The notes under the pieces were generated by a model. The model did no database searches and was not told the DNA's origin. It saw only the letters and a program-made list of their open reading frames with translations. From positions 62,001 to 126,000 of the forward strand of contig JAEUTQ010000012.1 in assembly GCA_016787445.1 (NCBI GenBank): 64,000 nucleotides of DNA, in the 5' to 3' direction. Every line of letters begins with the position of its first letter. Positions within the stretch are counted from its first letter, which is position 1. This document shows, piece after piece, positions 6,373 through 47,200 of this stretch. The translations under genes and the position numbers were made by a program. The DNA comes from Bacteroidia bacterium. Lineage in GTDB: Bacteria; Bacteroidota; Bacteroidia; B-17B0; Aurantibacillaceae.

Positions 6373-6412
6373 TAGGTTATTGTGGCAGGAAGTTTGCTGT
6401 CATTACTGTTAA

Positions 6413-6937: not shown

Positions 6938-6939
6938 AA

Positions 6940-7836: not shown

Positions 7837-7850
7837 TAGGGCATTGGTGT

Positions 7851-27531: not shown

Positions 27532-28683
27532 ATGATTAAAGTTTTAGTAATAGACGATGAGAAAGCCATTCGCAGAAGCATAAAGGAAATTCTGGAGTTT
27601 GAAAAATATTCTGTGGATGAAGCGGAAGATGGTGTGCAAGGACTTTCCATGGCACAGAAAAATAATTACGATGTTATTTTAAGTGATATAAAAATGCCAA
27701 AACTGGATGGCATGGAGTTACAAAATAAACTCATTGAATCGGGTGTAAGCAGTGCCTTAATTATTATGAGCGGTCATGGAACCATTGATACCGCGGTGGA
27801 AGCCGTAAAAAAGGGGGCTTACGATTTTTTAGCTAAGCCGATTGACTTAAACCGTTTGCTGGTGACCGTTAGAAACGCGATGGATAAATCGAGTCTTGTT
27901 ACGGAGACTAAACAGTTAAAGAAAAAAATCAGTAAAACTTTTGATATCATTGGCGAATCGAAAGCAATCAAGGACATAAAGGATATAATCGAAAAAGTGG
28001 CCCCAACGGAGGCCCGTGTATTAATTACCGGTAGTAATGGTAGCGGGAAAGAATTAGTGGCTCGCTGGTTACATGAGAAAAGCAATCGTGCTGCCGGGCC
28101 ACTCGTTGAGGTAAACTGCGCCGCTATTCCATCAGAATTAATTGAAAGCGAATTGTTCGGTCATGAGAAAGGATCATTTACGAGTGCCATCGCGCAACGT
28201 AAGGGTAAATTTGAAATGGCTGAAGGCGGCACTTTGTTTTTAGATGAAATTGGAGATATGAGCCAATCGGCACAAGCTAAAGTATTACGCGCTTTACAGG
28301 AAAGTAAAATTACACGTGTAGGTGGCGATAAAGAGATTAAAGTGAATGTGCGAGTAGTGGCAGCAACGAATAAGGATTTGAAATCCGAAATCGAAAAGGG
28401 AAATTTCAGAGAGGATTTATACCATCGCTTAAATGTAATACCAATTCATGTACCGTCTTTAAATGAACGATTAGATGATATTCCTCTTTTGGCTAAACAT
28501 TTCTTAAATCAAATTTGTACGGAAGGTAACATGCCTGTAAAGTCGATTTCCAATGAAGCAATAAAGGAAATGCAAAAACGCAACTGGACAGGAAATATCC
28601 GGGAGTTTCGAAACGTAATTGAGCGTTTAGTGATTTTAGGCGGTAAGGAAATCAGCGATAAAGACGTTAAGCAATTTGCTTAA
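27532..28683 (+). CDS. NtrC-like response regulator lacking GAFTGA and HTH
   Basis: 383 residues. A receiver domain (about 1-120) has the phosphoacceptor Asp52 (LSDIKMPKLDG). A sigma-54-type AAA+ domain (about 140-375) has Walker A GSNGSGKE (167-174) and Walker B GGTLFLDEIGD. The sigma-54 contact loop, normally GAFTGA, reads GSFTSA (214-219), and the protein ends just after the AAA+ lid (ISDKDVKQFA), without the Fis-type DNA-binding helix-turn-helix. It therefore may not act as a normal sigma-54 activator. It follows the Ppx/GppA gene by 3 nt and its end overlaps the stop of the facing gene. No histidine kinase is adjacent. Confidence 0.9.
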   Translation: MIKVLVIDDEKAIRRSIKEILEFEKYSVDEAEDGVQGLSMAQKNNYDVILSDIKMPKLDGMELQNKLIESGVSSALIIMSGHGTIDTAVEAVKKGAYDFLAKPIDLNRLLVTVRNAMDKSSLVTETKQLKKKISKTFDIIGESKAIKDIKDIIEKVAPTEARVLITGSNGSGKELVARWLHEKSNRAAGPLVEVNCAAIPSELIESELFGHEKGSFTSAIAQRKGKFEMAEGGTLFLDEIGDMSQSAQAKVLRALQESKITRVGGDKEIKVNVRVVAATNKDLKSEIEKGNFREDLYHRLNVIPIHVPSLNERLDDIPLLAKHFLNQICTEGNMPVKSISNEAIKEMQKRNWTGNIREFRNVIERLVILGGKEISDKDVKQFA

Positions 28684-29615
28684 TCGAAATTCACTTTCTT
28701 TAAAAGCCATTCGTAATAGCTTTGCTTTTTGTAATTGGGGTCGTATAATTTTTTATCAGGACGCTTAGCTCCCAATTGCTTTAAATCGGTGATACACATT
28801 TCAGGGTAACTAAGAGTTGGATTCATAAGCCACTTGATGTGACGCTTAAAAAAACTCAATTCAGCACCAGGAAATTTTGCGATTTGCATGTGCGGCAAAA
28901 GGGCTTTTGTTGTTTTTCTGAATTCTCTGTAATTGTGATTTTTTAAATCTGTACCGCCCCAATCTTTTATTAATTCCAAACCAATATGAAAAGTGAGATG
29001 TTGTTTTGTCAATAAAATTGGATTCTGTGCAAAGCAGAATAAATTGTAGAATAAATCATTTCCAACAAATGGAATACCAATGCACGTGTTGTTAAGAATA
29101 AACTTCGGAAATAAATCACGTTTGAATACAAACATATCAAATCCCAAATGCTCTTTTCCTGTTTCTGTATAGATAAGGTCTAAGTCTTCAGGTTTGTTAA
29201 GTGTGCTTTTGATTCTTCTTCGGTTTATCACAATAGCATCATGATCTTGTTCAATGTATTTTCCAATCGCATTGTAAAAAGGTAACATTAAACCAATATC
29301 CGCATTTGAATAAATGATGTAATCGGCCTGGCTATTGTCGTACGCAAGCTTCAGGATATCCTTTAGAAGCGGTAATTTCTTTTTATTACTAAAAGTGCCA
29401 ATATCCTGTATGCTTTTCTCGAGTGGAGGATATTGTTTAAATGCGTCGTTTTTCACCGGAAAGTCTTTGTGATAGCACAAGACTTGTTCAATTGAATAAC
29501 CGCTGTAAGATTTGGCTTTTTGCATGGAAGCCAAAGTGATATTTTGTAATTCAAAAAGTGATTTGTTTTCACTTTCTGAAACAGCATTCACAATATGTAC
29601 AAATGACAGATTCAT
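28680..29615 (-). CDS. Glycosyltransferase-like protein
   Basis: 311 residues, soluble, with no signal peptide. The middle shows a GT-A-like strand and acidic motif (YIIYSNADIGLMLPFYNAI), and further on GIPFVGNDLFYN and RDLFPKFIL, as in nucleotide-sugar-dependent transferases that lack a classic DxD. I infer a cytoplasmic glycosyltransferase but cannot name donor or acceptor. It is the third gene of an operon with two sulfotransferases (start at the last base of the previous stop), so it probably acts on the same sulfated glycan. Confidence in the enzyme class is moderate. Confidence 0.6.
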   Translation of the reverse strand: MNLSFVHIVNAVSESENKSLFELQNITLASMQKAKSYSGYSIEQVLCYHKDFPVKNDAFKQYPPLEKSIQDIGTFSNKKKLPLLKDILKLAYDNSQADYIIYSNADIGLMLPFYNAIGKYIEQDHDAIVINRRRIKSTLNKPEDLDLIYTETGKEHLGFDMFVFKRDLFPKFILNNTCIGIPFVGNDLFYNLFCFAQNPILLTKQHLTFHIGLELIKDWGGTDLKNHNYREFRKTTKALLPHMQIAKFPGAELSFFKRHIKWLMNPTLSYPEMCITDLKQLGAKRPDKKLYDPNYKKQSYYEWLLKKVNFD

Positions 29616-30463
29616 TATATAGAATACCCTAATTCATTCATTAAAGATATCAATTCTTTATCGGAATACAGAAATTCCAAATCTTCCTTGCTGTAAAATT
29701 CTTTCCAGCCTCCGGATTTACCTTCACGTACAAAATTTTGTTTGGTGTTCGACATAAATCGGCTGCCAAACTCATTTTCTATTTTTTTCAATTCAGTAAA
29801 TGAGGTCTTCTCTTTTAATAACTCAATATTCAATGGAGTTTTAAAACCACAAAAGCGATTGATGCCTTCAATTGTTTCATTAAAATTGTTTAAAAGAGAT
29901 TCGTAGGAAAGCACAAGGATTTTATCGTGATTTTGCTTTTGATACATTTTCATGGCTTTAATGTGTTGTTTCCAACTGCCGTGGCGTAATACGATGTTGC
30001 TTCGTATGAATTCCGAGAAGGTGCCACTAAAAAATTGGTAGGCCAACACAAAATGATAATAGGAAATTAAAGCATCGCGGTAATCACGGTAAATGTAGAT
30101 AACACGAGGATACCCCTCAAAAAAAATATCGTGAGTTTTTATTATTCTACCCGACGATTGGTTATCAATAATTTCTTTAGAAACATATACATCCGGTACA
30201 ATGTTCTCGAGTTCGTGAAAATTAATAGTGGTGGAGGTGCCATTTTTTAAGTAGGCCAGTATAAAACGCAACCATGTATTACCTGATTTGGGATAAGACA
30301 CCAAAAAAATGTCATCGGGATTTATTTTTTTGATTTGAAATAGAAAAGCAGTTTTGTTGATAAGACCAAGTTTTGCAGGTAGCCAACGTAAATATTGCAT
30401 CATTAATCGCTTTTTGCTGATAGGAAAAACAGCTTCCGGAATAAATATATGTTCCTGTTTCAT
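29615..30463 (-). CDS. Sulfotransferase (Sulfotransfer_1-type)
   Basis: 282 residues. The 5'-phosphosulfate loop that binds PAPS is VSYPKSGNTWLRFILAYL (YPKSGNTW at 57-64). The 3'-phosphate motif is VIYIYRDYRDALISYYHF. The C-terminal FVREGKSGGWKEFY matches the RKGxxGDWK region that closes over PAPS. These features fit the cytosolic-type family that moves sulfate from PAPS to hydroxyl or amino groups. It overlaps the upstream sulfotransferase gene by 4 nt (ATGA) and the downstream glycosyltransferase-like gene by 1 nt. The acceptor is unknown; a surface glycan is the simplest guess from context. Confidence 0.88.
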   Translation of the reverse strand: MKQEHIFIPEAVFPISKKRLMMQYLRWLPAKLGLINKTAFLFQIKKINPDDIFLVSYPKSGNTWLRFILAYLKNGTSTTINFHELENIVPDVYVSKEIIDNQSSGRIIKTHDIFFEGYPRVIYIYRDYRDALISYYHFVLAYQFFSGTFSEFIRSNIVLRHGSWKQHIKAMKMYQKQNHDKILVLSYESLLNNFNETIEGINRFCGFKTPLNIELLKEKTSFTELKKIENEFGSRFMSNTKQNFVREGKSGGWKEFYSKEDLEFLYSDKELISLMNELGYSI

Positions 30464-31299
30464 ATAGTTGCAAACAGCTTTCTTAACCGAGCATACGCTA
30501 AATTAACGTTATTGCGTATTTTAATGATGGTTGCGTATTTTTTATTGCCCTCGTGTAGTTCCTTCAAACCCTTTTCTAACACATCTTTCTTTTGTTCCAT
30601 AAGGGCTTTGAATTTTTGCAAAGCGTGTTCAAAAAGAACTTCATCATACTTACTGCAAGCTTTTATTAACTCCTCAGTTTCAGTATCCAACTCCGATTTA
30701 TCAATTTTGTAAGATGATTTATTCTCCTTTACATAAAATAAGGGAGGCCAGTTCATGTAGTCCGATAACAACACCAAGCTTTCATCAAAATATTCAGTTA
30801 AACCAAATCGATGAAAATACTCATCTAAATTTTTAACGGCAGTTTTTAAGTCATCTTCATTTACGGTAAGATAATCTTTTTGCACAGTGTTCGATAGATA
30901 ACGTACCATCAGATTGTCAAAATTTTTCACAAGACCTTGTTTCAAAAAATCTTTTAAGGTATAGTCATTTATGTTAATCTGTTTTTTTATAACATGCTGG
31001 CCGTCGCCTTTAATATGACGATAGGTTGATAAAAGTCTTTCACGTGCCGATCTTAAAAAAGTAAAACATTCTATACCTCTTTCAAGCCTTTGATTAGGAT
31101 TAAAACCAACATGTCCGTAACTTAACTCAAATTTGTTTTTGTATTCAGGTGTTAGAAGCGAGTAATTCTCACGTTCTTTAGGTGAATAAAAAGATAATTT
31201 CTTGCGCCATGTAAATCGCCTCGTTAAAATAAGGGCAAATGTTGTGCCCGCAGTTTTGGGAATATGTACAAACTGAAATTGCTTTTTTTGCTGGTTCAT
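30460..31299 (-). CDS. Sulfotransferase (Sulfotransfer_2, HS2ST-like type)
   Basis: About 279 residues from the chosen start. The PAPS 5' loop is FVHIPKTAGTTF (residues 10-21) and the 3' motif is CFTFLRSARERLLSTYRHI, typical of the carbohydrate sulfotransferases related to heparan/uronyl 2-O-sulfotransferases. The open frame extends to a TTG at 31326, but that codon lies inside a good -7 promoter box (TACATTTG), so ATG at 31297-31299 (MNQQKKQFQF) is preferred. It is first gene of a three-gene operon and divergent from the MBOAT-SGNH gene. This family differs from that of its neighbour, suggesting two different sulfation sites. Confidence 0.87.
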   Translation of the reverse strand: MNQQKKQFQFVHIPKTAGTTFALILTRRFTWRKKLSFYSPKERENYSLLTPEYKNKFELSYGHVGFNPNQRLERGIECFTFLRSARERLLSTYRHIKGDGQHVIKKQININDYTLKDFLKQGLVKNFDNLMVRYLSNTVQKDYLTVNEDDLKTAVKNLDEYFHRFGLTEYFDESLVLLSDYMNWPPLFYVKENKSSYKIDKSELDTETEELIKACSKYDEVLFEHALQKFKALMEQKKDVLEKGLKELHEGNKKYATIIKIRNNVNLAYARLRKLFATI

Positions 31300-31314
31300 T
31301 TTGATACTTTTTAA

Positions 31315-31346
31315 TTTACATTTCAAATGTATTAATTATATCTTAG
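31315..31346 (+). promoter_or_regulatory. Weak promoter of the MBOAT-SGNH operon
   Basis: TTTA (31315-31318), 20 nt, TATCTTAG (31339-31346). It departs from consensus at one base in each box, and a very similar TACCTTAG precedes the plus-strand gene at 41863. It overlaps the divergent sulfotransferase promoter. Confidence 0.4.
31324..31331 (-). promoter_or_regulatory. -7 box (TACATTTG) of the sulfotransferase operon
   Basis: Read on the minus strand, TACATTTG matches TAnnTTTG and ends 24 nt before ATG 31299. A TTTTGC about 15 nt further upstream is a poor -33. The box decides the start codon of the downstream gene. Confidence 0.55.
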
Positions 31347-31372: not shown

Positions 31373-33775
31373 TTGCAAAATAAGGATTCAGTATATAAGT
31401 TGTTGTATTATTCTTTGGCTTATGCATTGGTGTTTTATGCAGCTTACCTTATTAACTTCGATAAAGCACTTGATATGGTTGCTTTTAGTCCGGTTTTAAT
31501 CGGACTATTTATGGTTCAGTATTTTTTAAAGCCTGCACATAAAATGTTTGTGTTTCCAGTTCTGTTTATAACCTTGGCTTTTATGGTATTTACTCCGCTC
31601 ACAGCTTTGGTATTAATTGTATCACTGGTTTTGTTCGGAACTGTTATGTTCTCTAAATCTTCATACTACATAAAATTAATTTTTGCTTTGTTCTTTTTTG
31701 GCTTCATGATTTTACTATTAGCAGATGTAGTTCAGGTGTATCCTGTAAATTTCATGGCTCCATTTCTGCTAAGCATTATCATGTTCAGAGGTATTTTACT
31801 GTTATATGAATTTAAACACGCGCACGTGGTAAACAATTACGCTGCATCCTTTGCTTATTTGTTTTCCTTTCCGCAATTGCTTTTTCCGGTAATGCCGATC
31901 ATAGATTTTAAATTATTTGTTAATGGCTCAAACCCAACTTATGTTACAATATTGTGGCAAAAGACTTTTCGCCAGTTTATAACCGGTTTGTTTTTGTTTA
32001 CGGTTTATAAAATTTCTGATGCTTATTCCAATCTGGATGTATCGCAGCTTTATACAGTAAGTCATTTGTTTGTGGCAGTACTATTTAAGTTAACAGTACT
32101 TATTAAAATCTGCGGATTGTTTATGTTCTCTTTAGGATTTTTGACGATGTTCGGTATTGATTTACCATCTGCCTTTGGCTTTTTCCCTTTAGCTTCTGGG
32201 TTTAGAGATTACTGGAAGGATGTAAATCGCTACTGGCGTGATTTTTTATTGAAGTTGATTTATTATCCTTTGTATTTTAAGTTACGTAAAACGAACTGGC
32301 CATTTAAGACCTTCTTAGTAGTTATCGTTACATTTTTATTTTCAAGCTTTTTTCATTTTTATCAGCTATACCTGTCTTCAGGATATTTCCAATTGAAGTT
32401 GAATGATATTGTGTATTGGATGTGTTTGGGTTTTCTGGTTTACTGGAGTAATATCAGGTTTGAAAAAACATATAATAAGAATGATGGTGTTATCCAAGAG
32501 CCGGGCTTGTTAAAGCGTTCATTGAATGTTTTACTCGTGCAAAGCGTCATGTCCTTTTTGTTTTTTTTATGGAATTGCAATAGCTTGAGTGAATTTTTCT
32601 TCTTTCTTAAAAAGGGTAATAGTTTTGACATAGCGATTTTTGTTTATTTTATTCTGCTATGGTTTATAATTATTATAGCCCTGTTCTTAAGACCTCACAT
32701 CGAGAAAATTCTTTTTAATTCAAAAAGTGTAAATGTCACATCGGTTTGTTTTATAGTCTTTTTAATTGCAGGAAGTTTTTTACCACACTCAAGTTCCGGA
32801 CGAATTATTGATGTGCTTTATGGCAACGCACCAACAAGTGATGCGGATGCAAAGGAAGAAGGGTATTATGCGAAACTTCTCAATTCAAGTAATAATTCAA
32901 AAATGGGTAAAGAGGGTATAAACCGATTGCGACCCTTAGAAAAAGCGGGTGTCAAGAGTAATACTGTCTTGAAGCAGGAACTTGCACCAAATACGCTGAT
33001 TAGTTTTAATGGCACTGAAATAAGCACCAATAGTTATGGGCAACGGGATAAAGAATACGTGTTAAAGAAAGAAGAGTCTGTACAGCGCATTGCTATTTTG
33101 GGAGGTTCGTACGAAATGGGAACCGGAGTAAATGACGAAGTTGTATTTGAACAACAAACTGAAATATGGTTAAATGCGTATTCAGGTAGGAAGTATGAGT
33201 TGATTAATTTCGCGGTACCTATGTACACCATTTTGCAAAGTAAATATGTGTGTGAAAATAAAATTAAGAAATTTGATGTGGATGTAGCAGTGTTGTTTTC
33301 TCATACAAATGAAGAGCAACGGATGCTTAATAGTTTTTCGCGTCTCATAAAAAGTGGTTTTAATTTTGATGAAGATTTTCTTAAATTTATTATTCAAAAA
33401 TCCGGTGTTAAAAGGGAGATGAGTACCCCTGAAATAAAATACAGATTACAACCTTATGTTAACGCTATTTATTTCTGGTGTTACCAAGAAATGGTTGCCT
33501 ACTGTCATAAAAACAACATTAAAGCGGTTTGGGTCTTCTTACCAACAACAACAACACAAAAATTATCCGATGTAAAAGCAGATGATAATTTAAAGCAATT
33601 AGCTCAGAAGGCGGGTTTTGAAGTGTACTCTTTGCAAAATATATACGGAAACAGAAGTGCAAAAACGCTTGCTGTTAGTTCAATTGACTCTCATCCTAAT
33701 GCACTGGGACATACCTTGATTGCAGGTGGATTTTATCATATAATAACAGGATTAAATAAACAATCACATGAATAG
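31373..33775 (+). CDS. MBOAT acyltransferase fused to an SGNH-hydrolase domain
   Basis: About 800 residues. The frame is open from TTG 31301 (824 residues), but a putative -7 box lies at 31339-31346, so TTG 31373 (MQNKDSVYKLLYY) is the likelier start. Ten or more transmembrane helices carry MBOAT landmarks: DYWKDVNRYWRDFL and the membrane-embedded catalytic-type His in SSFFHFYQ (codon 32354-32356). The C-terminal third, predicted outside the membrane, has SGNH blocks: GGSYEMG (Ser codon 33107) and DSHPNALGH (Asp 33686, His 33692). DltB/DltD and AlgI/AlgJ use separate proteins for these two activities. It overlaps the carrier-protein gene by 8 nt. Predicted to move an acyl group onto an external acceptor. 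Confidence 0.82.
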   Translation: MQNKDSVYKLLYYSLAYALVFYAAYLINFDKALDMVAFSPVLIGLFMVQYFLKPAHKMFVFPVLFITLAFMVFTPLTALVLIVSLVLFGTVMFSKSSYYIKLIFALFFFGFMILLLADVVQVYPVNFMAPFLLSIIMFRGILLLYEFKHAHVVNNYAASFAYLFSFPQLLFPVMPIIDFKLFVNGSNPTYVTILWQKTFRQFITGLFLFTVYKISDAYSNLDVSQLYTVSHLFVAVLFKLTVLIKICGLFMFSLGFLTMFGIDLPSAFGFFPLASGFRDYWKDVNRYWRDFLLKLIYYPLYFKLRKTNWPFKTFLVVIVTFLFSSFFHFYQLYLSSGYFQLKLNDIVYWMCLGFLVYWSNIRFEKTYNKNDGVIQEPGLLKRSLNVLLVQSVMSFLFFLWNCNSLSEFFFFLKKGNSFDIAIFVYFILLWFIIIIALFLRPHIEKILFNSKSVNVTSVCFIVFLIAGSFLPHSSSGRIIDVLYGNAPTSDADAKEEGYYAKLLNSSNNSKMGKEGINRLRPLEKAGVKSNTVLKQELAPNTLISFNGTEISTNSYGQRDKEYVLKKEESVQRIAILGGSYEMGTGVNDEVVFEQQTEIWLNAYSGRKYELINFAVPMYTILQSKYVCENKIKKFDVDVAVLFSHTNEEQRMLNSFSRLIKSGFNFDEDFLKFIIQKSGVKREMSTPEIKYRLQPYVNAIYFWCYQEMVAYCHKNNIKAVWVFLPTTTTQKLSDVKADDNLKQLAQKAGFEVYSLQNIYGNRSAKTLAVSSIDSHPNALGHTLIAGGFYHIITGLNKQSHE

Positions 33776-34025
33776 AGATGAATTAAAGAAAGAGGTTCGG
33801 AGTTTTATTGCGAATAAAATGTTTAAAGGAAACTTGCCCGGCGATTTTACGGATGATACTAAGCTGATTAGTTCACGCCTCATTGATTCAATTGTGGTGT
33901 TGAGTATGGTAAATTATCTGGAAGAGAAGACTAAAACTGAGTTCGCGGCACATGAAGTAAGCGTCGAAAATTTAGATACTGTAAATATTATCGCCGACTT
34001 CCTATCAAAGAAATTATCAAAATAA
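33768..34025 (+). CDS. Acyl/peptidyl carrier protein (DltC/PltL-like)
   Basis: 85-residue four-helix carrier protein. The phosphopantetheine site is Ser41 in LIDSIVVLSMVNYLEE. It overlaps the end of the MBOAT-SGNH gene by 8 nt (ATGAATAG) and sits next to a free-standing adenylation-domain gene. It is therefore expected to hold the amino acid activated by that enzyme and to present it to the dehydrogenase and then perhaps to the MBOAT protein, as DltC does for DltB. No phosphopantetheinyl transferase is in the window. Confidence 0.88.
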   Translation: MNRDELKKEVRSFIANKMFKGNLPGDFTDDTKLISSRLIDSIVVLSMVNYLEEKTKTEFAAHEVSVENLDTVNIIADFLSKKLSK

Positions 34026-34063
34026 TTAGGAGGCCTCAATTAAAAAGGAGTACGCTCCCTTAC

Positions 34064-35473
34064 TTGATAAATGAAGAAGGGCAGATGGCGTTATTCTCTG
34101 ATTTGGCATCAGCTGTTAATAAATTTCAAGAGAATATTTCACAACTAGGATTAGAGAAGCAGAATTCAAGCATAGCAATTTGGACTGAGAAATCAGTAAA
34201 TGCCATTGTTATGATTCAAGCGATTTTATCTTCAGGGAACGGATACATTCCAATTAACAATGATTGGCCTTCCGACAGGGTAAAATTTATTTTGGAAAAT
34301 ACCGGTACCGCCACGTTAATTGTGGATGAAAATCGATGCTCCATTGCTTCCGATCTGTTGAATGAAATGGGAGTACAATTTACCATGGTTCGAATTGACA
34401 GAAACTTTTATCTTTTTAGCTTTAAATCAATCCGAAAAATCCGATTACCAAAAGCCTTAAGTTATATCTTATTTACCTCCGGTTCTACAGGATATCCAAA
34501 GGGAATTGTACATACGCATGAAAGTGCATTTACGTTTTTGAAATGGTGTTTGAAGGAATTTAAAAGCTATAAAATTAAACGCCACGTATCTATTGCACCT
34601 CTCAATTTTGATTTGTCGGTCTTTGATGTTTTTTATCCTTTAGTTAATACATCCACCTTGTTTGTTCCTTCTTCATCCGTCATATCAAACACGCGCTTAT
34701 TCGCAAAGTATGTGAACGATCAAAAAATCGAATCGTTATATACAACACCTTCATATTTGAATCTACTGGAACAAACCGGTAAATTATCTGCTTACGATTT
34801 CAAACACGTTAAACTTATTTTAATCGCCGGAGAGGCTTTATCATCTGATTTAGTAAAGCGATTAAAAGTGCATTTTAAAAAAGCAACGTTTTATAATTTA
34901 TACGGACCAACGGAAACCAATGTTTGCAGCGCATTTAAAATTAATTTAAAAAAGCTGAGCGGGGAGTATATTCCGATTGGTAAATCCATTATTAAAGGGA
35001 ATATAAAACTTAGCAAACAAGGTGAGTTGTTATATAAGGGAAAACTCTTGATGTCAGGCTATATTAATGATAAGGGGTATCAAGTACTCCGAAAGAATTC
35101 AGTTTATAAAACCGGCGATTTTGTTACTTGCGATAAAAACGGTCTATTAAATTTTATTGGACGAAAAGATAATCTCGTTAAACGTAACGGGTTTCGGATT
35201 GAATTAAATGAAATTAATAAAGCTTTGCAAAAACATTCGGCTATTGGTCGATGCGAATCTTTATTTTTAAAAGAAGATAATCTAATCGTTTCTTTTGTGG
35301 AATCAGCTGATGATTTATCTCAGTTAGCTTTAAAATCTTTCTGCTTAAAGCACTTACCATCATATATGGTGCCGGATTTAATAATGGTTTTACGAAAAAT
35401 TCCGGTAAATTTAAATCATAAAGTTGACCAAACTGCTTTAAGAAAAATGTATGCTCAATCATTTAAATCATAA
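34064..35473 (+). CDS. Free-standing NRPS-type adenylation domain, predicted proline-activating
   Basis: 469 residues. Adenylation motifs are clear: A3 FTSGSTGYPKG (from residue 137), A4 FDLSVFD (D183), A5 YGPTETNVC, A7 YKTGD, A8 FIGRKDNLVKRNGFRIELNE and A10 with the catalytic K453 in NHKVDQ. By hand alignment to GrsA the specificity residues read D-L-F-Y-L-A-L-V-C-K, one step from the DLLYLALVCK I recall for the L-proline-activating enzymes of pyrrole pathways (PltF, CloN4 type). It should load the carrier protein just upstream. The start is uncertain: A-domain-like residues continue in frame before TTG 34064, but no standard start codon is found there; AAGGAG lies 13 nt before the TTG. Confidence 0.88.
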   Translation: MINEEGQMALFSDLASAVNKFQENISQLGLEKQNSSIAIWTEKSVNAIVMIQAILSSGNGYIPINNDWPSDRVKFILENTGTATLIVDENRCSIASDLLNEMGVQFTMVRIDRNFYLFSFKSIRKIRLPKALSYILFTSGSTGYPKGIVHTHESAFTFLKWCLKEFKSYKIKRHVSIAPLNFDLSVFDVFYPLVNTSTLFVPSSSVISNTRLFAKYVNDQKIESLYTTPSYLNLLEQTGKLSAYDFKHVKLILIAGEALSSDLVKRLKVHFKKATFYNLYGPTETNVCSAFKINLKKLSGEYIPIGKSIIKGNIKLSKQGELLYKGKLLMSGYINDKGYQVLRKNSVYKTGDFVTCDKNGLLNFIGRKDNLVKRNGFRIELNEINKALQKHSAIGRCESLFLKEDNLIVSFVESADDLSQLALKSFCLKHLPSYMVPDLIMVLRKIPVNLNHKVDQTALRKMYAQSFKS

Positions 35474-36596
35474 TCATCAATCGACTTACAAGGCTTATCA
35501 TAAGCTGGCGGCAGAAATTTGTTCTGAGGCTGATGTTATGAAAGAGGACAAAGCTGCAGTGTACAACAGAGAGACTTTTCGCGCTATAAACGCTGCCGGT
35601 TTTAATGCGTTGCACTTACCGGATTCATTAGGTGGTAGAAAATTATCAGCAATGGATACAGCTGTTGCTTATTTAGCATTAGGGGCATCTTGTCAGAACA
35701 ATGGTTTAACTTTTTCTGTCGGTGCACAAGCATTTTCTGTAAATGTTCCTTTGATGAAATATGGAAATGATGCTCTCTGCAATCAGTTTTTAATTCCATC
35801 TGTTAAAGGTAAGATTGTAATTGCGTCAGCTATTACAGAAAAGGAAAGTGGTTCGGATGCCTATAATATGAAAACCACGGCTGTTAAATCAGGAAACGAT
35901 TACATATTAAACGGCTCTAAATATTACATTACGAATGCACCCATTGCGGATTATTTTCTGATTTATGCATTTACCGATGTTCAGAAAGGAAGTATTGGGG
36001 GATTGAGCGCATTCTTAGTTGATGCAAAGGAAAAAGGTGTAGAAGTGCTTGGTCCAATTGATAAAATGGGATTACGAACAGCGCAAATGGGAGGCGTGAA
36101 TTTGACAAATGTGAAGGCTATTGCTAGGTTAGGTGAGGAGGGAAGTGCTACTGCGATGTTCAATGAAGCTATGATTTGGGAAAGAACCATTTTAAGCGCT
36201 TTAAATCTTGGAATCGTTGCTAGAGTATTAGAGAAAGTTAAGAAGTTCGGAGAAGAGAATTCGAGGGGTGGAAAAAAATTGAATGAGCAATTGGAATTTA
36301 TTACACTGATTAATCATTCCAATTCCTTTTTAACTCAGGCCTGGGAGAAAATAAGTGATGCCGCAATTGCCTTGGATCAATTCCCTAAACAATCGTTTTT
36401 AAAAGCATCCATCGCTAAATCATTTGTTGCGGACAATGGTGAGAAATTAATACGTAGTTTGCAACAAGCTACAGGAGCTTTTGGTTATTTAAGTGAAAAC
36501 GGTATTGAGCGTGATTACCGCGATTTTTTAGCGTTTACTATTTACTCAGGTTCTCAGTACGTGCAAAATAAAATTATTTCAAGTTTTAGTCAGTAA
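35451..36596 (+). CDS. Acyl-CoA dehydrogenase-like flavoprotein, predicted prolyl-carrier oxidase
   Basis: 381 residues, full-length acyl-CoA dehydrogenase fold. FAD and substrate motifs include IASAITEKESGSDAYNMKT and YYITNAPIADYF. The catalytic base is at the isovaleryl-CoA-dehydrogenase position, Glu244 in MIWERTIL, while the classic YEG site is replaced (IYSGSQY). That is the arrangement I recall for enzymes oxidising prolyl-S-carrier to pyrrolyl-S-carrier (PltE/CloN3 type), whose size it shares. It overlaps the adenylation gene by 23 nt and the hydroxylase gene by 1 nt, so it belongs to that pathway rather than to fatty-acid oxidation. Activity on proline is inferred from the trio. Confidence 0.86.
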   Translation: MLNHLNHNHQSTYKAYHKLAAEICSEADVMKEDKAAVYNRETFRAINAAGFNALHLPDSLGGRKLSAMDTAVAYLALGASCQNNGLTFSVGAQAFSVNVPLMKYGNDALCNQFLIPSVKGKIVIASAITEKESGSDAYNMKTTAVKSGNDYILNGSKYYITNAPIADYFLIYAFTDVQKGSIGGLSAFLVDAKEKGVEVLGPIDKMGLRTAQMGGVNLTNVKAIARLGEEGSATAMFNEAMIWERTILSALNLGIVARVLEKVKKFGEENSRGGKKLNEQLEFITLINHSNSFLTQAWEKISDAAIALDQFPKQSFLKASIAKSFVADNGEKLIRSLQQATGAFGYLSENGIERDYRDFLAFTIYSGSQYVQNKIISSFSQ

Positions 36597-37273
36597 TGAG
36601 TCAACATAATATAACTGAAAAGAATCCTCAATTTTTTTATGAGGCAAAGGACTTCCCATTCTTAAACCCTTTGGTTGAAAATTTTTCAGTTATAAAATCT
36701 GAATTACTAAATCTAATTGAAAAGAATAAGGAAAATCAATGGCTCGAAACGTTTCCGAATTATGTAGCGTCGGAAAACAAGAAGGCTTGGAAGGTTTTTT
36801 CTTTCATTTTTTTCTCAATGAAATTTCCTGAAAACGCGAAATTGTGTCCTAAGACAGCTGAATTGATTTATTCTATTCCTGATATTATTTCCTGTGATTA
36901 TTCGTTTCTAAAACCTAATACACATATTCTTCCACATAAAGGTTACACGCGCATGGTTTTGCGTTGTCATTTGCCTCTGATTGTTCCGGAAGGTGATTGC
37001 GCCATTCGTATCGGTGACGAAACAAGAAAGTGGGAGGAAGGTAAACTCATGGTGTTTGATGATTCATTTGATCATGAGGCTTGGAATAAAAGTGACAATA
37101 ACCGAGTTGTTTTAATGTTTGATATTCCGAATCCGCTCTGGGGTTATACGGCATATCAGATTTCTAAATACAAAATTGAGAATCTTGATGATCCGTTTTT
37201 GTTATCGATGGTAACTAAGGAAAAATGGCTGGAAGCTTTTTCTAAGGGAGAATTTCCTTTGATGAGCTTTTAA
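36596..37273 (+). CDS. Aspartyl/asparaginyl beta-hydroxylase-like Fe(II)/2-oxoglutarate enzyme
   Basis: 225 residues. The second half holds the family's iron and cosubstrate motifs: HILPHKGYTRMVLRCHLPL (first His and the Arg/His pair) and WEEGKLMVFDDSFDHEAWNKS (second His), then NNRVVLMFDI. Soluble bacterial members hydroxylate small molecules or lipid acyl chains (LpxO) as well as Asp residues. Its 1-nt overlap with the dehydrogenase gene points to hydroxylation of the carrier-bound ring or acyl group, or of the final product; which one cannot be told. Last gene of the plus-strand operon; its end overlaps the facing GNAT gene by 4 nt. Confidence 0.85.
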   Translation: MSQHNITEKNPQFFYEAKDFPFLNPLVENFSVIKSELLNLIEKNKENQWLETFPNYVASENKKAWKVFSFIFFSMKFPENAKLCPKTAELIYSIPDIISCDYSFLKPNTHILPHKGYTRMVLRCHLPLIVPEGDCAIRIGDETRKWEEGKLMVFDDSFDHEAWNKSDNNRVVLMFDIPNPLWGYTAYQISKYKIENLDDPFLLSMVTKEKWLEAFSKGEFPLMSF

Positions 37274-37887
37274 TTTTTAAGCACATTGTTTATTTCATCC
37301 AAGTTGTTTTCCGATATTGTTCCGGTACAGATTAATTCACCGTCGCCATTGTTTAATTGCTCTGCCGCTTTATTGAGTTTGCTTCCGTTTTTTATATAAT
37401 CCTCAATACTTAATTCGTACAGTTGATTATAAATCCCTTCTTGTCCGGCTACTAATTTATAACCTGTAAGCTGATTGTAATGAATGGCTCTGTCGTTATC
37501 GTTTAAGATGCGGGCATGTGAAAGCTTGCATAATTTCACTTTGAAGAAAACAAAATTAAGCAGACATAAAGTACTGAATACGGCGGCAAACGAGTTAATG
37601 TAATCATTGTCCCAAATAAAAATACCCCCTTCGCCAAACCCGTTTTCATAGCTGAAATTTTTGGCATTTATTAATCCTACTTGCTTTCCTTCGAACTCAA
37701 TAATAAAATAGTAATTGAATTTATTGTTAACCGATTCAAACCATTTCTGCTGCATTTGTGGCGTAATGTATTCGCGATAATCCATATACATTTTTACCGA
37801 CTGCTGGTTGCGCCAATAGCGTAGGAGTTCGAGGTCGTTTTTTGTAATTCGCCTCAGGGTAACGCCATATTGTTTAATCGTCAACAC
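37270..37887 (-). CDS. GNAT-family N-acyltransferase
   Basis: 205 residues of the RimJ/RimL or PseH type: LRRITKNDLELLRYWRN at the N terminus, a central strand pair with EFEGKQVGLINAKN, and ARILNDNDRAIHYNQLTGYKLV, the usual acyl-CoA-binding region and C-terminal helix of GNATs. PseH-like members acylate the 4-amino group of nucleotide amino sugars, which would suit this glycan-related locus. It overlaps the GT2 gene (14 nt). The last 35 or so residues are an additional polar tail. The acceptor is not readable. Confidence 0.75.
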   Translation of the reverse strand: MLTIKQYGVTLRRITKNDLELLRYWRNQQSVKMYMDYREYITPQMQQKWFESVNNKFNYYFIIEFEGKQVGLINAKNFSYENGFGEGGIFIWDNDYINSFAAVFSTLCLLNFVFFKVKLCKLSHARILNDNDRAIHYNQLTGYKLVAGQEGIYNQLYELSIEDYIKNGSKLNKAAEQLNNGDGELICTGTISENNLDEINNVLKN

Positions 37888-38803
37888 TTTTTTCTGCGAT
37901 ATAGTAAGATGGCTTATTGTTAACGTCTTTTAAAATTTTACTGATATATTGAGCAACAATACCAATGCTTAAAACAATCAAGCCGGTTGAAAACAAAAGA
38001 CTAACAATAATGGAAGTATAACCATGTACCGGTGTCTTGAAAAGAAATTTCTTCAATAAATAGAATGTGCCAATAATAAAATTAACTGTTGCCAGCGTAA
38101 AACCAATAGTTGTAACAAGGCGTAGAGGAAATGTAGAGGAAAACATGATAACACTCCCAGTTATTTGAAATAGGCTTCCTAACGAATAACCGCTGCGTTT
38201 TGAAATCGGGCTTTTATTGGGTCGTACTTTAATGAATGACATTCGGTTGGTATACCAAATTAAGAGTTCATCAATAAACATGAAGTGTGTATGTGTTTCA
38301 GCAAGTTTGTGAGCTAATTCGGATTTTATTAGCCTAAAAGAAGAGCCTTTTCCTTTATTTTTACCTTCCATTTTTGAACCGGCTTTATAAAGCCAGGTAA
38401 GCGTTTCTCTTAAAAATGATTGATCAAGTTTTCTATACTCGCCATACACCACATCATTACCGCTTTTTACTTCCTCTTCAATTAAATATTTTATCTCTTC
38501 CGGATGCACCTCCAGGTCGTCATCAATTGTGATAATATAATTTCCTTTGGCAAACTTAATACCACATAAAGTTGCAGGTTGCTGTCCGAAATTCTTTGTT
38601 AATCGTATAATTCTTACGTTTTTATTATAGTTTTTTAGTTTGGTAAGAATTTTCCAAGTATCATCGGTGTTTCCATCATCCACTATAATAACTTCATAGG
38701 TATACGTTGTTGACTGAAAAAAATTTGTTATTTCTTCGAACAACAACTCGATGCTGTTTTGTCCGTTGTATGTGGGAATTATTATAGAATATTGTAAACT
38801 CAT
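37874..38803 (-). CDS. Polyprenyl-phosphate-type GT2 glycosyltransferase (DPM1/GtrB/ArnC-like)
   Basis: 309 residues. An N-terminal GT-A domain (YSIIIPTYNGQ, VIIVDDGNTDDT, ITIDDDLEVHPEE) is followed by two C-terminal transmembrane helices (about 220-245 and 270-300). This architecture transfers a sugar from a nucleotide donor to undecaprenyl or dolichyl phosphate on the cytoplasmic side; the lipid-linked sugar is then used by a GT-C enzyme outside. A GT-C-like protein is encoded at 41863 in the same locus. It overlaps the SDR gene by 4 nt and the GNAT gene by 14 nt. Confidence 0.88.
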   Translation of the reverse strand: MSLQYSIIIPTYNGQNSIELLFEEITNFFQSTTYTYEVIIVDDGNTDDTWKILTKLKNYNKNVRIIRLTKNFGQQPATLCGIKFAKGNYIITIDDDLEVHPEEIKYLIEEEVKSGNDVVYGEYRKLDQSFLRETLTWLYKAGSKMEGKNKGKGSSFRLIKSELAHKLAETHTHFMFIDELLIWYTNRMSFIKVRPNKSPISKRSGYSLGSLFQITGSVIMFSSTFPLRLVTTIGFTLATVNFIIGTFYLLKKFLFKTPVHGYTSIIVSLLFSTGLIVLSIGIVAQYISKILKDVNNKPSYYIAEKSVDD

Positions 38804-39543
38804 TTTTTACTGCTTAATAATAAACCTCCGTCCATTTTGATTGTGGTGCCTGTTATCCATTTGGAAGCATCAGATAAAAGGAATGCCGCGCAATTCGCGA
38901 TATCTATTGGTTCGCCAAAACCCAATGGATATTGTGCCTCGTAATTTTTCATTTCCTCTTCAGAAGTGGCTAGCTCGGTTTCATCAAAAATTTTTGTTTT
39001 TACCAATGAAGGCGCAATTACGTTCGCGCGAATTTTTTTAGAGGCGTGTTCAATGGCAAATGAACGACAAAAAGCTTCGAGCGCCGCTTTAGAAGCACTG
39101 TATAATGCTCCGCCGATGTATGGATGCAAGGATGAAATGGAGGAAAGAAAAATAACCGAGGCATGATTATTGAATTTTTTCGCGCTGCTTAATTCGCTGC
39201 ACAACAAAACAGTGGAGTTAAAATTCGCTTCAAACATTTCAGAAATATGTTTGCTCTTAATAAACTTTACAGGTAAAGGTTTAACAATACCTGCACAGTT
39301 GATTAATCCGTCAAGGTTGTTGCAGTTTTTTACCAATTCCGATAACTGATTTTCATTCGTTAAATCAGCTACTATTATTTGATGTTTGTTTTTTAGTTGA
39401 GAAGCAGTAGTTTTTAATTCAGCCTCATTTCTTCCTGTAATAATAACCTGAGCACCCAACTGATCACATAAAACAGCGCAGGCTCTGCCAATGCCAGAAG
39501 AGGCACCGGTAACCAAAACTGTTTTATTATTTAAGGTTATCAT
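38800..39543 (-). CDS. Short-chain dehydrogenase/reductase (FabG-like)
   Basis: 247 residues, classical SDR. The NAD(P)-binding TGASSGIGRA is at 12-21, with NCAGI in the middle, catalytic Ser in FLSSISS and the Tyr/Lys pair in YSASKAA, and a C-terminal TGTTIKMDGG as in FabG-type enzymes. Between a KAS III and a glycosyltransferase it most likely reduces a 3-oxoacyl group on the nearby carrier protein, although a sugar or other alcohol is possible. It overlaps both neighbours by 4 nt. Confidence 0.88.
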   Translation of the reverse strand: MITLNNKTVLVTGASSGIGRACAVLCDQLGAQVIITGRNEAELKTTASQLKNKHQIIVADLTNENQLSELVKNCNNLDGLINCAGIVKPLPVKFIKSKHISEMFEANFNSTVLLCSELSSAKKFNNHASVIFLSSISSLHPYIGGALYSASKAALEAFCRSFAIEHASKKIRANVIAPSLVKTKIFDETELATSEEEMKNYEAQYPLGFGEPIDIANCAAFLLSDASKWITGTTIKMDGGLLLSSKK

Positions 39544-40595
39544 AATTCAATAATTTTGGCGCAACTTAATTCAGATGTGTTTATAACAACACTTCCCCAC
39601 GAAAGACCAACCCCAAAGCCGCACAATAACAAAGTTAAACTTTCTTTCGTAAGTTGTTGCTCTAATCCAAAACACATGGTTAATGGTATGGAGGCCGAGC
39701 TGGTATTACCGAAAAGTTCTATGGAAGATGGACATTTTTCTTTTTCAATTCCCAACTTTTTGCGAACGGTTTCGTTTATGAGTTTGTTAGCCTGGTGTAA
39801 GATGAAAAAATCAATGTCACTTTTGTTTTTATCAGCCGCAGCGATAGTTTCTTCAATGTTTGGCGGTACTTCTTTCAACGCAAATGTAAAAATGTCTTGT
39901 CCGTTTAAAGCTAAGTGTTTTTTAGCGCGTTTTATTCCTGGTTCAGGTTCGTAAATAGTTTCTGAGGAAGAATCGTAAGGGTGACGGGAATGACCGTGCT
40001 CGATGATGATGGCATTTTTTCCGCTTCCGTCACTATTTAAATTGAAGGTAAGCTCGGAGGCATTTTTATCGTACTCGATTAAGGTGGCTGTTCCTGCATC
40101 ACCAAACAGAGGGTAAGCGCTTTTATCGCCTTCAAAGGTAGAGATGGTAGATTTATCACCACACAATAATAGTGCTTGCTTGAATTGTCCGCTTTGCATA
40201 AAACCGGCCAAAACGCTTAAACCATATACATAACCGCTGCAACCAAGCGTAATGTCAAAAGCCAATACGCTTTTTTTAAGCTTTAGTTTATCTTGTAAAA
40301 TGATAGCAGTCGACGGTAGAAAATAATCGGGAGATTGTGAGACAAAAATGATGATGTCAATATTCTCGCGATTAGTAATGTTGTTTTCGAAAAAATAATT
40401 GGCGGCTTTCTCACACAAATCGCTGCAGGTCGTTTTATCATCCGCAACTCTTCTTTCTTTAATGCCAACTGTTTTATGAAATAGTTCTTGTTCTTCTTTG
40501 CTTATGTTATTGTAATCATACGTGCTTTTAATCTGTCTGGGTACGCAAACAGAAATACCTTTGATGGAAATGCCCGATGTTTTAAAAATGCTCAA
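39540..40595 (-). CDS. 3-oxoacyl-ACP synthase III-like enzyme (KAS III 2)
   Basis: 351 residues, FabH/KAS III fold with the full catalytic triad: Cys119 (TLGCSGYVYGL), His267 (FFILHQAN) and Asn297 (ELFGNTSSAS). KAS III enzymes condense an acyl-CoA with malonyl-ACP; relatives act as acyl shuttles (CouN2-type) or O-acyltransferases. It overlaps the SDR by 4 nt and the ACP gene by 4 nt. About 30-35% of residues look shared with KAS III 1 (my rough reading), so this is an old paralog pair rather than a recent duplication. Confidence 0.9.
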   Translation of the reverse strand: MSIFKTSGISIKGISVCVPRQIKSTYDYNNISKEEQELFHKTVGIKERRVADDKTTCSDLCEKAANYFFENNITNRENIDIIIFVSQSPDYFLPSTAIILQDKLKLKKSVLAFDITLGCSGYVYGLSVLAGFMQSGQFKQALLLCGDKSTISTFEGDKSAYPLFGDAGTATLIEYDKNASELTFNLNSDGSGKNAIIIEHGHSRHPYDSSSETIYEPEPGIKRAKKHLALNGQDIFTFALKEVPPNIEETIAAADKNKSDIDFFILHQANKLINETVRKKLGIEKEKCPSSIELFGNTSSASIPLTMCFGLEQQLTKESLTLLLCGFGVGLSWGSVVINTSELSCAKIIEL

Positions 40596-40828
40596 GCTGA
40601 TTTTTTTTGTTGAACGAGATTGTACAGGTCTTGAACGGTTTGAGTTGATTTTAAATCTGCCCCGCTTAAAGTAATATTAAAATTTATGTCGATAAAAGCA
40701 ATGATAATAAGCGCATGCATACTGCTCCAGCCTTTAATGCTGCGATAATCTGTTTCCGCTTTTAAAGTGCCTTGTGGCATATCTTCAAATTCGGCTTCCA
40801 GTTTTTGTATGAATTCGTTTATCGACAT
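40592..40828 (-). CDS. Second acyl carrier protein
   Basis: 78 residues. The phosphopantetheine site is in IKGWSSMHALIII (Ser36, the Ser before Met). It lies between two KAS III genes, overlapping the downstream one by 4 nt, so it is probably their dedicated carrier. It differs clearly from the carrier at 33768 (IDSIVV site), so the locus runs two separate carriers. Confidence 0.85.
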   Translation of the reverse strand: MSINEFIQKLEAEFEDMPQGTLKAETDYRSIKGWSSMHALIIIAFIDINFNITLSGADLKSTQTVQDLYNLVQQKKSA

Positions 40829-40837
40829 AGAACAAAT

Positions 40838-41824
40838 TTAATAATTTATTACAGTTGCACCCCAACTATTTCCTACACCAAAGCCAGCTAACAGAACTTT
40901 CATGCCTTTTTGCAGCTTTTTTTCTTCTTTAGCAGTATATAATGCAAGCGGAAGGGTAGAAGCAACGGTGTTGCCATAATCCTTAATGTTGGTGTAAAAT
41001 TTGTTTTCCGAAATATTAAGTTTTTTTCTAAGGGTTTCAAGCATAAAGCCATTTGCCTGATGGAAAATAAACAAATCAATGTCTTCCATTCCTAATTTGT
41101 TTTTATCCAACGTTTCTTTCACCATTTTGGGAACGGTTTTTAACGCGAACGTAAACACGTTGGTGCCATTCATGACCATTTGTCCGAATGGATTTATTTC
41201 ATTTCTGCAGGCACTTTTTTCAATGGGTTTTCTAAAGGCACTGTTCTCTATGTACAAGTCAAGCGCACCGCTTCCATCACTTCCAAAGATGAATTCATTG
41301 TCGGGTAAATTTCCCAAATAAGTAATAATGTTCGCGGTGGCAACATCACTAAAAATACTGCGTTGTTCTAAGTTATCGGGTGAAAGAGTTTTTGTTGAAG
41401 TATCACAGGTTAAAAATAAAATTGTTTTAGCCATGCCGCTTTTTAAGAATCCGTTGGCCATTCCTAAGCCATAAACATAACCTGAACAACCATAAGGCAA
41501 ATCAATACAGGCAGTGGTTTGTGGTAATCCGAGGCGATGTTGTAATATGCAACTGGTAGCAGGCGCTATGTAATCGAAACAATCAGAGCAAAAGATCAGA
41601 AAATCAATTTTTGATTTTAATTCAGGTTCAATGTCAAAAATCTTTTTGGCAGCCAAATAGGCTAAATCAGAAGCGGTTTCGTTTTTTCCTGAAATGTATC
41701 TGGATTCGATGCCGGTACGTTTTAATATTTCTTTTTCAGAAACATTAAACTCTTTTGCCAGCATTTGATTTGATAAAATGAGTTCGGGTAAATGAATGCT
41801 TATTTTATCAATAGAGAGTCCCAT
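40838..41824 (-). CDS. 3-oxoacyl-ACP synthase III-like enzyme (KAS III 1)
   Basis: 328 residues with an intact KAS III triad: Cys113 (LPYGCSGYVYGLG), His255 (LFIFHQAN) and Asn285 (KDYGNTVAST). Its primer acyl group is unknown. It is first gene of the minus-strand operon; the ACP gene follows after 9 nt. A near-perfect promoter ends 7 nt before the ATG, which would give a leaderless or almost leaderless message. With the ACP, second KAS III and SDR it could build a 3-hydroxyacyl chain, or pass a pre-made acyl group from one carrier to another. Confidence 0.9.
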   Translation of the reverse strand: MGLSIDKISIHLPELILSNQMLAKEFNVSEKEILKRTGIESRYISGKNETASDLAYLAAKKIFDIEPELKSKIDFLIFCSDCFDYIAPATSCILQHRLGLPQTTACIDLPYGCSGYVYGLGMANGFLKSGMAKTILFLTCDTSTKTLSPDNLEQRSIFSDVATANIITYLGNLPDNEFIFGSDGSGALDLYIENSAFRKPIEKSACRNEINPFGQMVMNGTNVFTFALKTVPKMVKETLDKNKLGMEDIDLFIFHQANGFMLETLRKKLNISENKFYTNIKDYGNTVASTLPLALYTAKEEKKLQKGMKVLLAGFGVGNSWGATVINY

Positions 41825-44243: not shown

Positions 44244-47200
44244 ATGAAGAAATATTTTTACTTAAGTGTTTTGATGGTGGTTCTGAGCTTCAACTCAGCA
44301 TTTTCCCAGTGTGTTAACTTATACACTTCTACACCAATTCCTCTTACCTTGTACAATAGTTCATTTGCAACAGTGCCATCTTACAGTATTGCTTGTAATT
44401 CGGGTGTTCATTTTATTGGTGCCGGTCAGCCTGGTGGCGGAAGTCCGGTCAACCTCTATAACACACCTTGTATTCGTTTAAGAATTAATCCAACAAATGG
44501 ATTTTCTTCAATTGATAATTCAATTACACTTTATGAAAATGGAAGTTTAATAGGTTGTACCGGTCCTGTTGGAACATGTACGGCTAATATTGGCCCGATG
44601 CCTAATAACTCGAACTATCAGTTATTTGCTTCATACATGGATCCTACATTGAACCATCAATATGTGTTGTGTAATATTAACGCGTGGTTTCCTAACATGA
44701 CATATACAGTATCCAGTTGTTATGATAATGCTACTTTAGTTACCGGAACATGGACAACAAATGCAGTTGGTTGTCAAACTGTGACAGTTCCAGCCAATAG
44801 CGCCATTGGAACGGCATCTTATGCTTTAAATCCAGCTGTACCGGGCGCATTAACTAATTTTGGTGATGGCTATTGCGCATTAACCACTTCATTAATGCCG
44901 GTTGGTACTTATACTGTAACATACACATTCAATACTCAAAATGCTTCTTGTCCTATCGTAACCGGAACCCAAACAATTGTTGTGGGTAATCCTTATAGTG
45001 CAGCATGGACAACACCAACAGTTCAATGTACAGCATTTGGTTGTTTAGCTTTAAATCCACAAGTTACCGGAACAGGTGGTGGTGTATTCAGCGGAATCGG
45101 TGTTAGTGCGAATTCATTTTGTCCGGGTACTTCCGGGGCAGGTACTTTCCCTGTAACGTATTCAGTTGGTATTAGTGCTACTTGTAGTTCTTCACTATCA
45201 CAAAACATTCAGGTAAATACGACACCAACCGCGAATGCAGGCTCAACAAAAACTATCAATTGCGTTCAAACCACAACAATTATAAATGGTACAGGCGGAA
45301 CAACATATACTTGGACGGGTCCTGGCGCATTTTCTTCTAACTTACAAAACCCAACGGTTAGCAGCCCTGGTACATACAGCTTAACCGTTACAACAGCTTC
45401 TTGTATTTCTGCAGCATCAACTGTGGCAGTAATTCAAAATACAACTGCACCGACTGCAGCCGCAGCCACAACAGGCTCTGTAACATGTGCAACAACAACA
45501 ATCAATTTAAATGGAAGTCCTGCCGGTATGACTTATACCTGGACTGCTCCAGGCGGAAGTTCAATTTCTTCAGGTACTAATTCGCAAAACGCTGTTGGTA
45601 GTGGGGTAGGTACTTACACTATTCGAGTAGTTGATTCAAATAATGGCTGTTCTGCGACAGCTACCGTAGCTGCGAATATAAATACAGTTCAACCATCCTC
45701 ATCTGCAGGCACAACAGGTTCTGTTACTTGTGCTACAACAACTATTAACTTAACTTCCGCTCCTGCAGGTATGAATTATACTTGGACGGCTCCGGGTGGA
45801 AGTTCTATTTCGTCTGGAACAAACTCTCAAAATGCAGTTGGTAACGGAAGCGGAACATATACTGTAACGGTTCGTGATCCAATAAACGGATGTTCACGTA
45901 CGGCAACAGTAACAGCAAATATTAATACGGTAACACCATCTCCTGTTACTGCCTCCACTACAGGAACAGTTACTTGCGCTTCTACAGCTATTAACTTAAG
46001 TTCAACACCGGCGGGTATGACTTATGTTTGGACTGCTCCATTAGGCTCATCAATTACCTCGGGTGGTACATCACAAAATGCTACGGGTTCAGGCGCAGGA
46101 ACATATTCTGTAACCATAACAAATCCAACTAACGGTTGTTCTACTGCTACAACAGTGGCTGCTAATTCAAATACTACTCCGCCAACACCTTTAATCACTA
46201 ACAATCCAACTATAACATGTACAAATACTTTGGTTACTTTAAATGGTAGCCCGGCTTCCGGTGTGTTGTATACATGGACAGGTTCCGGAATTATCGGCGC
46301 ATCTAATCAGCAAACAGTAAACGTAAATCAATCCGGAACTTATACATTATTAGTACAAAGTACTGCAAACAGTTGTACAGCTTCAATTAGCACTTCTGTT
46401 TCAAATAATACAATTGCGCCAACGATTACGCCGGTAGCTACGCAAACTATAACTTGTGCGAGCCCTTCAGTTACTTTAATTGGTAGTGCAAATCCTTCTT
46501 CTTGTACCGTTGTTTGGACCGGAGGCGTTTGTGCAGGAGCTAACTCTTATACAGCTACAGCATGTGCACCTGGTACATACACTTATATTGCTACCAATCC
46601 TGCGAACGGCTGTCCTTCAACTCCGCAAGTTGCAACTGTAGTACCAAATAGTTCTATTCCATCTGCAACAGTTGTAAACACAGGAACCATTACTTGTTCA
46701 ACAACCACAATTCAAGTAGTTGCGACATCAACTTCTACACCTGTAACATATAGTTGGAGTGGTACAGGAATTGTTTCCGGCTCAAGTACACCAACCATTG
46801 TCGTAAATGCAGGTGGTACATATTCATTAGTTTTATTGAATACGTCAAACTCTTGTTCAGTTACAATTACGAATAGTGTAACAGCAGATAATGCTGCAGT
46901 TACTCCGACTACTACCGCCTCAACAACCATTACTTGTTTAACTACAACGGCAAACGTAAGTACAAATGCAGGTTCAGGTTCTTATACTTATAATTGGTCT
47001 GGCCCTGGTGTTGTAGGAACAAATACTTTATCTTCTGCAACTGCAAGTTTAGGAGGTTTATATACAGTTACTGTTACAAACACAGCAAATGGTTGTGTGG
47101 GTACTGGTACAGTTTCAGTAACATCTAATACATCAACACCAACCGGTGTAGCTATTAATCCTTCTACATTTACTTTATCTTGTGCAACACCAACTACAGT

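Follow-up and report, generated by a model that had tools for sequence, protein, structure and literature searches.

Gene content of the locus

The window, a 64,000-nucleotide stretch of DNA from a member of the Bacteroidia, carries on its forward strand an operon in which the gene for an MBOAT-SGNH fusion protein (31373 to 33775) precedes a carrier protein (PCP/ACP) gene (33768 to 34025). The latter lies directly upstream of the gene for a standalone, proline-type adenylation (A) domain (34064 to 35473), which is followed directly, with an overlap, by the gene for a prolyl-carrier-protein dehydrogenase homologue (35451 to 36596). The first-pass annotation of this DNA was concerned with the A domain and did not report the MBOAT-SGNH gene in that finding. 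On the opposite strand, in the interval from 28680 to 31326, are a conserved unassigned protein (28680 to 29615) and two sulfotransferases (29615 to 30463 and 30460 to 31326). Downstream of the operon, profile matches identified an Asp/Asn β-hydroxylase-like oxygenase (PF05118; 36596 to 37273, forward strand) and, on the reverse strand, a module encoding GNAT, GT2, SDR, KASIII, ACP, and KASIII proteins (37270 to 41824), in which both KASIII enzymes have intact Cys-His-Asn motifs. The region is flanked by large repeat-rich proteins (22528 to 26466, 1,312 amino acids; 44244 to 48884, 1,546 amino acids) that are probably surface proteins.

The oxygenase travels with the GNAT module, and in Bacteroidota the whole block is kept with the proline module, yet it also occurs without it and was therefore treated as an independent module, which is probably glycan modifying. 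Together with its OlsC/LpxO-like hydroxylase, the block resembles a hydroxyacyl-amide glycan module, and roughly half of 60 related genomes contain relatives of its GNAT gene. A KASIII shuttle of the kind known from clorobiocin was considered and rejected, as the block exists without proline genes. The oxygenase is unlikely to be a proline hydroxylase of the pathway, since it follows GNAT in genomes that have no proline genes, and it probably stands outside proline metabolism at this locus.

The adenylation domain carries a proline-type pocket

Counted from a TTG codon, the A-domain open reading frame encodes 469 amino acids that match PF00501 (AMP-binding; E value = 1.6e-50) and TIGR01733 (263 bits); scores against NCBIfam equivalog models were below their cutoffs. 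No ATG is found near the expected start (34028 to 34064), and beginning at the TTG at 34064 leaves the N terminus about 20 residues shorter than that of the homologue in genome G001; those in G002 and G006 are similar.

To read the substrate pocket, the A domain and related A domains were aligned with MAFFT against the GrsA segment, the sequence and numbering of which were verified against structure 1amu. The GrsA code was recovered as DAWTIAAICK, and the window A domain reads DLFYLALVCK (D183, L184, F187, Y226, L253, A255, L279, V287, C288, and K453 in GrsA numbering, with codons checked), the same ten residues that the first-pass annotation had aligned by eye. The range it gave for them, 34604 to 34960, holds nine of the ten positions; the A10 lysine (K453) is present but is encoded outside that range, at 35420 to 35422. 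Over the pocket stretch, the window A domain has its best PDB alignment, free of gaps, with 6o6e, annotated as an L-proline--[L-prolyl-carrier protein] ligase, whose code is DLLYLALVC (the aligned fragment stops short of Lys517). A solved prolyl-carrier ligase thus bears out the earlier claim that the code departs from the proline code only by F for L.

The claim that this change is conservative also held up in a wider comparison, as DLFYLALVCK and DLLYLALVCK were both found next to prolyl-carrier dehydrogenase homologues in several phyla, the former in Gemmatimonadota (locus L068) and Chloroflexota (L067, L070, L071, L074, and L075) in addition to the window. Ligases adjoining such dehydrogenases mostly share 8 to 10 of the 10 code positions with the window, whereas for NRPS A domains from these loci the figure is 2 to 5, which argues that the code is not a chance resemblance. 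Fourteen rows are identical to the window code, a tally that takes in the window itself and near copies. Among open-licence PMC papers, no literature match for DLFYLALVCK was found. An AlphaFold model built on a five-sequence alignment (mean pLDDT, 68.7; pocket loop 178 to 208, below 50) was too poor for a structural overlay or a fold search. L-proline is a well-supported predicted substrate, as the proline/pyrrole-type reading of the pocket agrees with the surroundings of this standalone domain, which has a discrete carrier protein before it and a dehydrogenase after it, an order of functions that fits pyrrole formation.

The carrier protein and the dehydrogenase

The carrier protein contains the DS attachment motif, with the predicted attachment site Ser41 at 33888 to 33890, and its nearest NCBIfam model is NF052616 (67 bits, under the cutoff). 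One PPTase-family protein above the cutoff is encoded in the window genome.

The dehydrogenase belongs to the acyl-CoA dehydrogenase family (PF02770, PF02771, and PF00441). Its best PDB match is the prolyl-ACP dehydrogenase 4irn (206 bits), followed by the L-prolyl-PCP dehydrogenase 5zw0 (158 bits), and its best NCBIfam models are PigA (243.5 bits) and RedW (193.4 bits), with scores that do not reach the equivalog cutoffs of 500 and 650, respectively. Glu244 (36180 to 36182), in a WER motif, aligns with the Glu that acts as catalytic base in both enzymes; this motif is shared by the window protein and most of its relatives and is missing from housekeeping acyl-CoA dehydrogenases. PMC10849742, which also covers CloN3, describes what this Glu does and how RedW, PltE, and Bmp3 remove four electrons from proline bound to its carrier. 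In the phylogenetic tree, the window protein groups, on a long branch, with other prolyl dehydrogenases, with support values of 99/91 (97/96 for the clade including 5zw0). The branch leading to the dehydrogenases of genomes G000 and G007 is long (1.41 changes per column) compared with other members of the genus. Reading two- versus four-electron oxidation from this tree was rejected, as 4irn and 5zw0 are placed in different parts of it on long branches.

Several homologues depart from this pattern. In L088, L089, L090, L097, and L098, an Asp (YDR) replaces the catalytic Glu, and the neighboring A domains have other codes, e.g., DMLYLGVQCK. In L082, L083, and L086, actinomycete dehydrogenases with a WEV or WEI motif are accompanied by A domains with the code DLLQ(I/L/V)T(I/V/L)DSK. 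L064 and L065 have identical dehydrogenases, one from a contig assigned by binning to Chryseobacterium gleum and the other from a different Bacteroidetes MAG, which is likely a binning error.

A DltB-like MBOAT fused to an SGNH domain

A Pfam search of the MBOAT-SGNH protein at 1e-3 returned no match, and its assignment comes from structure comparison. The protein is 800 amino acids long when its start is placed by alignment with the G007 homologue (the reading frame is open from 31301), and a model from a 16-row alignment had a mean pLDDT of 79.3. Residues 29 to 413 (31457 to 32611) form an MBOAT domain with a DltB-like fold: comparison with DltB (8jem) gave the top row with a Z score of 21.6 (363 residues aligned; rmsd, 4.8), and the best Foldseek matches were 6bug and 8jem. 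Model residues from about 508 to 797 match SGNH esterases, and the SGNH domain was placed at residues 530 to 797 (32960 to 33763), with Ser579, Asp772, and His774 as its predicted triad. The predicted MBOAT catalytic residue, His328 (32354 to 32356), and Ser579 are invariant wherever the respective region is present; His774 is invariant given an MBOAT partner, and Asp772 occurs in all MBOAT-partnered rows except that of L137, which has Tyr at this position. In Planctomycetota (L079 and L080) and Acidobacteriota (L084 and L085), the MBOAT and SGNH proteins are encoded by separate, adjacent genes.

Just before the SGNH domain, every MBOAT-partnered row has a Tyr-Tyr pair (Tyr498-Tyr499 in the window protein, in a GYY motif; 32864 to 32869); in six SGNH-only proteins, no such pair was found there. 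The FxYxxF shuttle motif, which has been described at the C termini of PatA and DltX (PMC12148441), was not found at the MBOAT C terminus in 13 family members, which have GYY instead. We offer as a guess that GYY is an acyl-Tyr relay, and the fusion of the two domains in one protein makes such a relay testable.

With its A domain, carrier protein, DltB-fold MBOAT, and SGNH enzyme, the operon has the same four component types as DltABCD(X), the system for D-alanylation of teichoic acid, in which the acyl group is likewise carried as a carrier thioester; the carrier protein, MBOAT, and SGNH enzyme are encoded together with the ligase, as in Dlt. It is nonetheless highly improbable that this is a true Dlt system esterifying a polymer with D-alanine. 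The pocket of BcDltA (DLMTLCTVA) is unlike that of the window, the NCBIfam DltA models scored far below their cutoffs on the A domain (226 versus 476 bits and 212 versus 560 bits), and D-alanylation has no role for a prolyl dehydrogenase. The operon further differs from DltABCD(X) in the fusion of MBOAT and SGNH (split in the four loci named above), in that no FxYxxF was found at the MBOAT C terminus, and in its occurrence mostly in Gram-negative phyla.

Linkage of the MBOAT-SGNH protein to proline genes across phyla

Two sources supplied loci for comparison: genome contigs scanned with the dehydrogenase alignment and 395 sampled genomes from the phylum to which the window belongs. These loci were spread over many phyla. 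MBOAT-SGNH genes occur with carrier protein, A-domain, and dehydrogenase genes in the window genus and in L065, L068, L072, L079, L080, L084, and L085, spanning Bacteroidota, Gemmatimonadota, Verrucomicrobiota, Planctomycetota, and Acidobacteriota; in Chloroflexota, MBOAT-SGNH accompanies the A domain (and the carrier protein in L133). Carrier protein, proline ligase, and MBOAT-SGNH, fused or split, are thus neighbors in six phyla. Within the 395-genome sample, a search with the MBOAT-SGNH alignment was positive only in G000, G088, G310, and G423, the same four genomes that have an ALVCK-type proline ligase and the top-scoring dehydrogenases; the exact chance of this co-occurrence is 1e-9, a value that ignores phylogeny and uses an ALVCK class defined after the data had been seen. 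The MBOAT gene of G088 is located far from the locus that encodes its carrier protein, A domain, and dehydrogenase.

The protein was detected in 13 of the 30 genomes behind the contig scan. No MBOAT-SGNH match was found for L069, L071, L074, L075, L078, L081, L087, and L091, which have the same code and the dehydrogenase, or in G275, G259, and G120, in which prolyl-dehydrogenase homologues sit in NRPS/PKS-like settings with other codes. The link therefore runs from the MBOAT protein to the carrier chemistry and not the reverse, and proline-carrier chemistry must have other uses as well.

These patterns bear on whether the operon makes a small molecule. A domain, carrier protein, and dehydrogenase are the same three enzymes that serve pyoluteorin, prodigiosin, and clorobiocin formation, and some relatives lie inside PKS/NRPS clusters; the neighboring KASIII-ACP-KASIII genes, with their intact active-site motifs, might then elongate or shuttle a pyrrolyl group, and the MBOAT would be incidental. 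We consider this unlikely, as the KASIII block is found without any proline genes in G012, G034, and G043 and MBOAT-SGNH stays next to the carrier protein and A domain across all six phyla.

The gene arrangement also bears on the identity of the acyl group. In L127 to L129, carrier protein, A-domain, and MBOAT genes are contiguous, and the dehydrogenase is encoded elsewhere in the genome, outside the operon; in L133 and L134, A-domain and MBOAT genes are adjacent, again with the dehydrogenase elsewhere. The contiguity in L127 to L129 would suit export of unoxidized prolyl, a plain aminoacyl ester like D-Ala in Dlt, or of a two-electron pyrroline carboxylate, with the dehydrogenase acting partly or elsewhere, and the split placement of 4irn and 5zw0 means that the oxidation state is not readable from the tree. 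We regard this variant, which differs from a pyrrole-exporting pathway only in the acyl group, as the less likely one: the dehydrogenase was found in every examined genome that has both MBOAT and proline ligase, and locus L072, from Spartobacteria, contains a pair of genes for flavin halogenase-like enzymes, a type that acts on carrier-bound pyrrole in known pathways.

Sulfotransferases, glycosyltransferases, or a Wzx-type flippase occur near these loci. In L072, the two halogenase-like genes (4932 to 7875) come before the carrier protein, proline ligase, and dehydrogenase genes within a polysaccharide locus that also encodes a Wzx-type flippase, a glycosyltransferase, and a sulfotransferase; a halogenated pyrrole on a surface polymer is possible there.

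A proposed pathway for proline-derived surface acylation

We propose that the operon probably encodes a carrier-protein-fed, Dlt-like surface acylation pathway that exports a proline-derived acyl group onto a surface glycan. This proposal draws on sequence and model predictions: the proline-type pocket, a dehydrogenase with the catalytic Glu, the attachment Ser of the carrier, the conservation of catalytic residues within the MBOAT and SGNH folds, and cross-phylum linkage. The A domain would adenylate L-proline and load it onto the carrier protein, and the dehydrogenase would oxidize the prolyl-S-carrier. A four-electron reaction that yields pyrrole-2-carboxyl-S-carrier is most likely, and the acyl group is thus probably pyrrole-2-carboxyl. 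The DltB-like MBOAT is then predicted to take the acyl group from the carrier and move it across the inner membrane via His328 and perhaps Tyr498/Tyr499, and the fused SGNH domain (Ser579, Asp772, and His774) would hand it to a hydroxyl of the exported glycan, the putative acceptor.

Standalone proline-type A domains, discrete carrier proteins, and acyl-CoA dehydrogenases with the catalytic Glu also make up the thiotemplated pyrrole pathways (PltF-PltL-PltE, PigI-PigG-PigA, and CloN4-N5-N3). The window operon, unlike these, has no adjoining PKS, NRPS, or halogenase genes and has an MBOAT-SGNH export acyltransferase. In clorobiocin and coumermycin, pyrrole-2-carboxyl formed from carrier-bound proline ends up on a sugar, as in the proposed pathway; these differ in being cytoplasmic small molecules made with different transferases. 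PatA/PatB and other MBOAT-SGNH O-acetylation pairs share the MBOAT His, the SGNH triad, and acyl transfer across the inner membrane (PMC12148441). According to that 2025 study, such non-Dlt pathways have no carrier protein and are evidently fed by acyl-CoA (PMC12148441), whereas the window operon encodes a carrier; their shuttle Tyr lies in the C-terminal FxYxxF, in contrast to the GYY conserved before the SGNH domain here.

The operon and its relatives would thus be carrier-fed counterparts of MBOAT-SGNH pathways in Gram-negative bacteria and would join the pyrrole chemistry of secondary metabolism to envelope modification. Among open-licence PMC papers, we found no description of the predicted surface substituent and no paper on an MBOAT/SGNH system with a carrier protein, adenylation, pyrrole, or FAAL.

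Possible carrier-fed MBOAT-SGNH proteins with other partners

Three more MBOAT-SGNH proteins, in G832, G657, and G950, were found without reference to proline genes. No proline ligase of this kind was seen in these genomes, and a carrier protein homologue adjoins MBOAT-SGNH in all three. Other adenylating enzymes lie nearby in two: G832 (L141) has a fatty acyl-AMP ligase-like enzyme next to MBOAT-SGNH, followed by two sulfotransferases, and G657 (L140) has two such enzymes, of which one carries a fused chorismate pyruvate-lyase-like domain. In G950 (L142), the carrier is present and no ligase was seen nearby. The presence of a carrier neighbor in all three and of other adenylating enzymes in two suggests that the acyl group varies and that carrier feeding is general among these relatives. 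It is an evenly balanced question whether, beyond Dlt, carrier-fed MBOAT-SGNH acyltransferases form a wider class that decorates exported polymers through a GYY relay, with the partner adenylating enzyme picking the acid: oxidized proline here, with a 4-hydroxybenzoate-like acid (G657) and a fatty acid (G832) as possible others.

In L141 (2871 to 7561), the FAAL-like ligase, carrier protein, and MBOAT-SGNH genes are contiguous, with the two sulfotransferase genes downstream. In L140, the gene for the acyl-AMP ligase fused to the chorismate pyruvate-lyase-like domain (PF01947; 6049 to 8301) lies directly before the MBOAT-SGNH gene, and a 4-hydroxybenzoyl version of the pathway is possible there.
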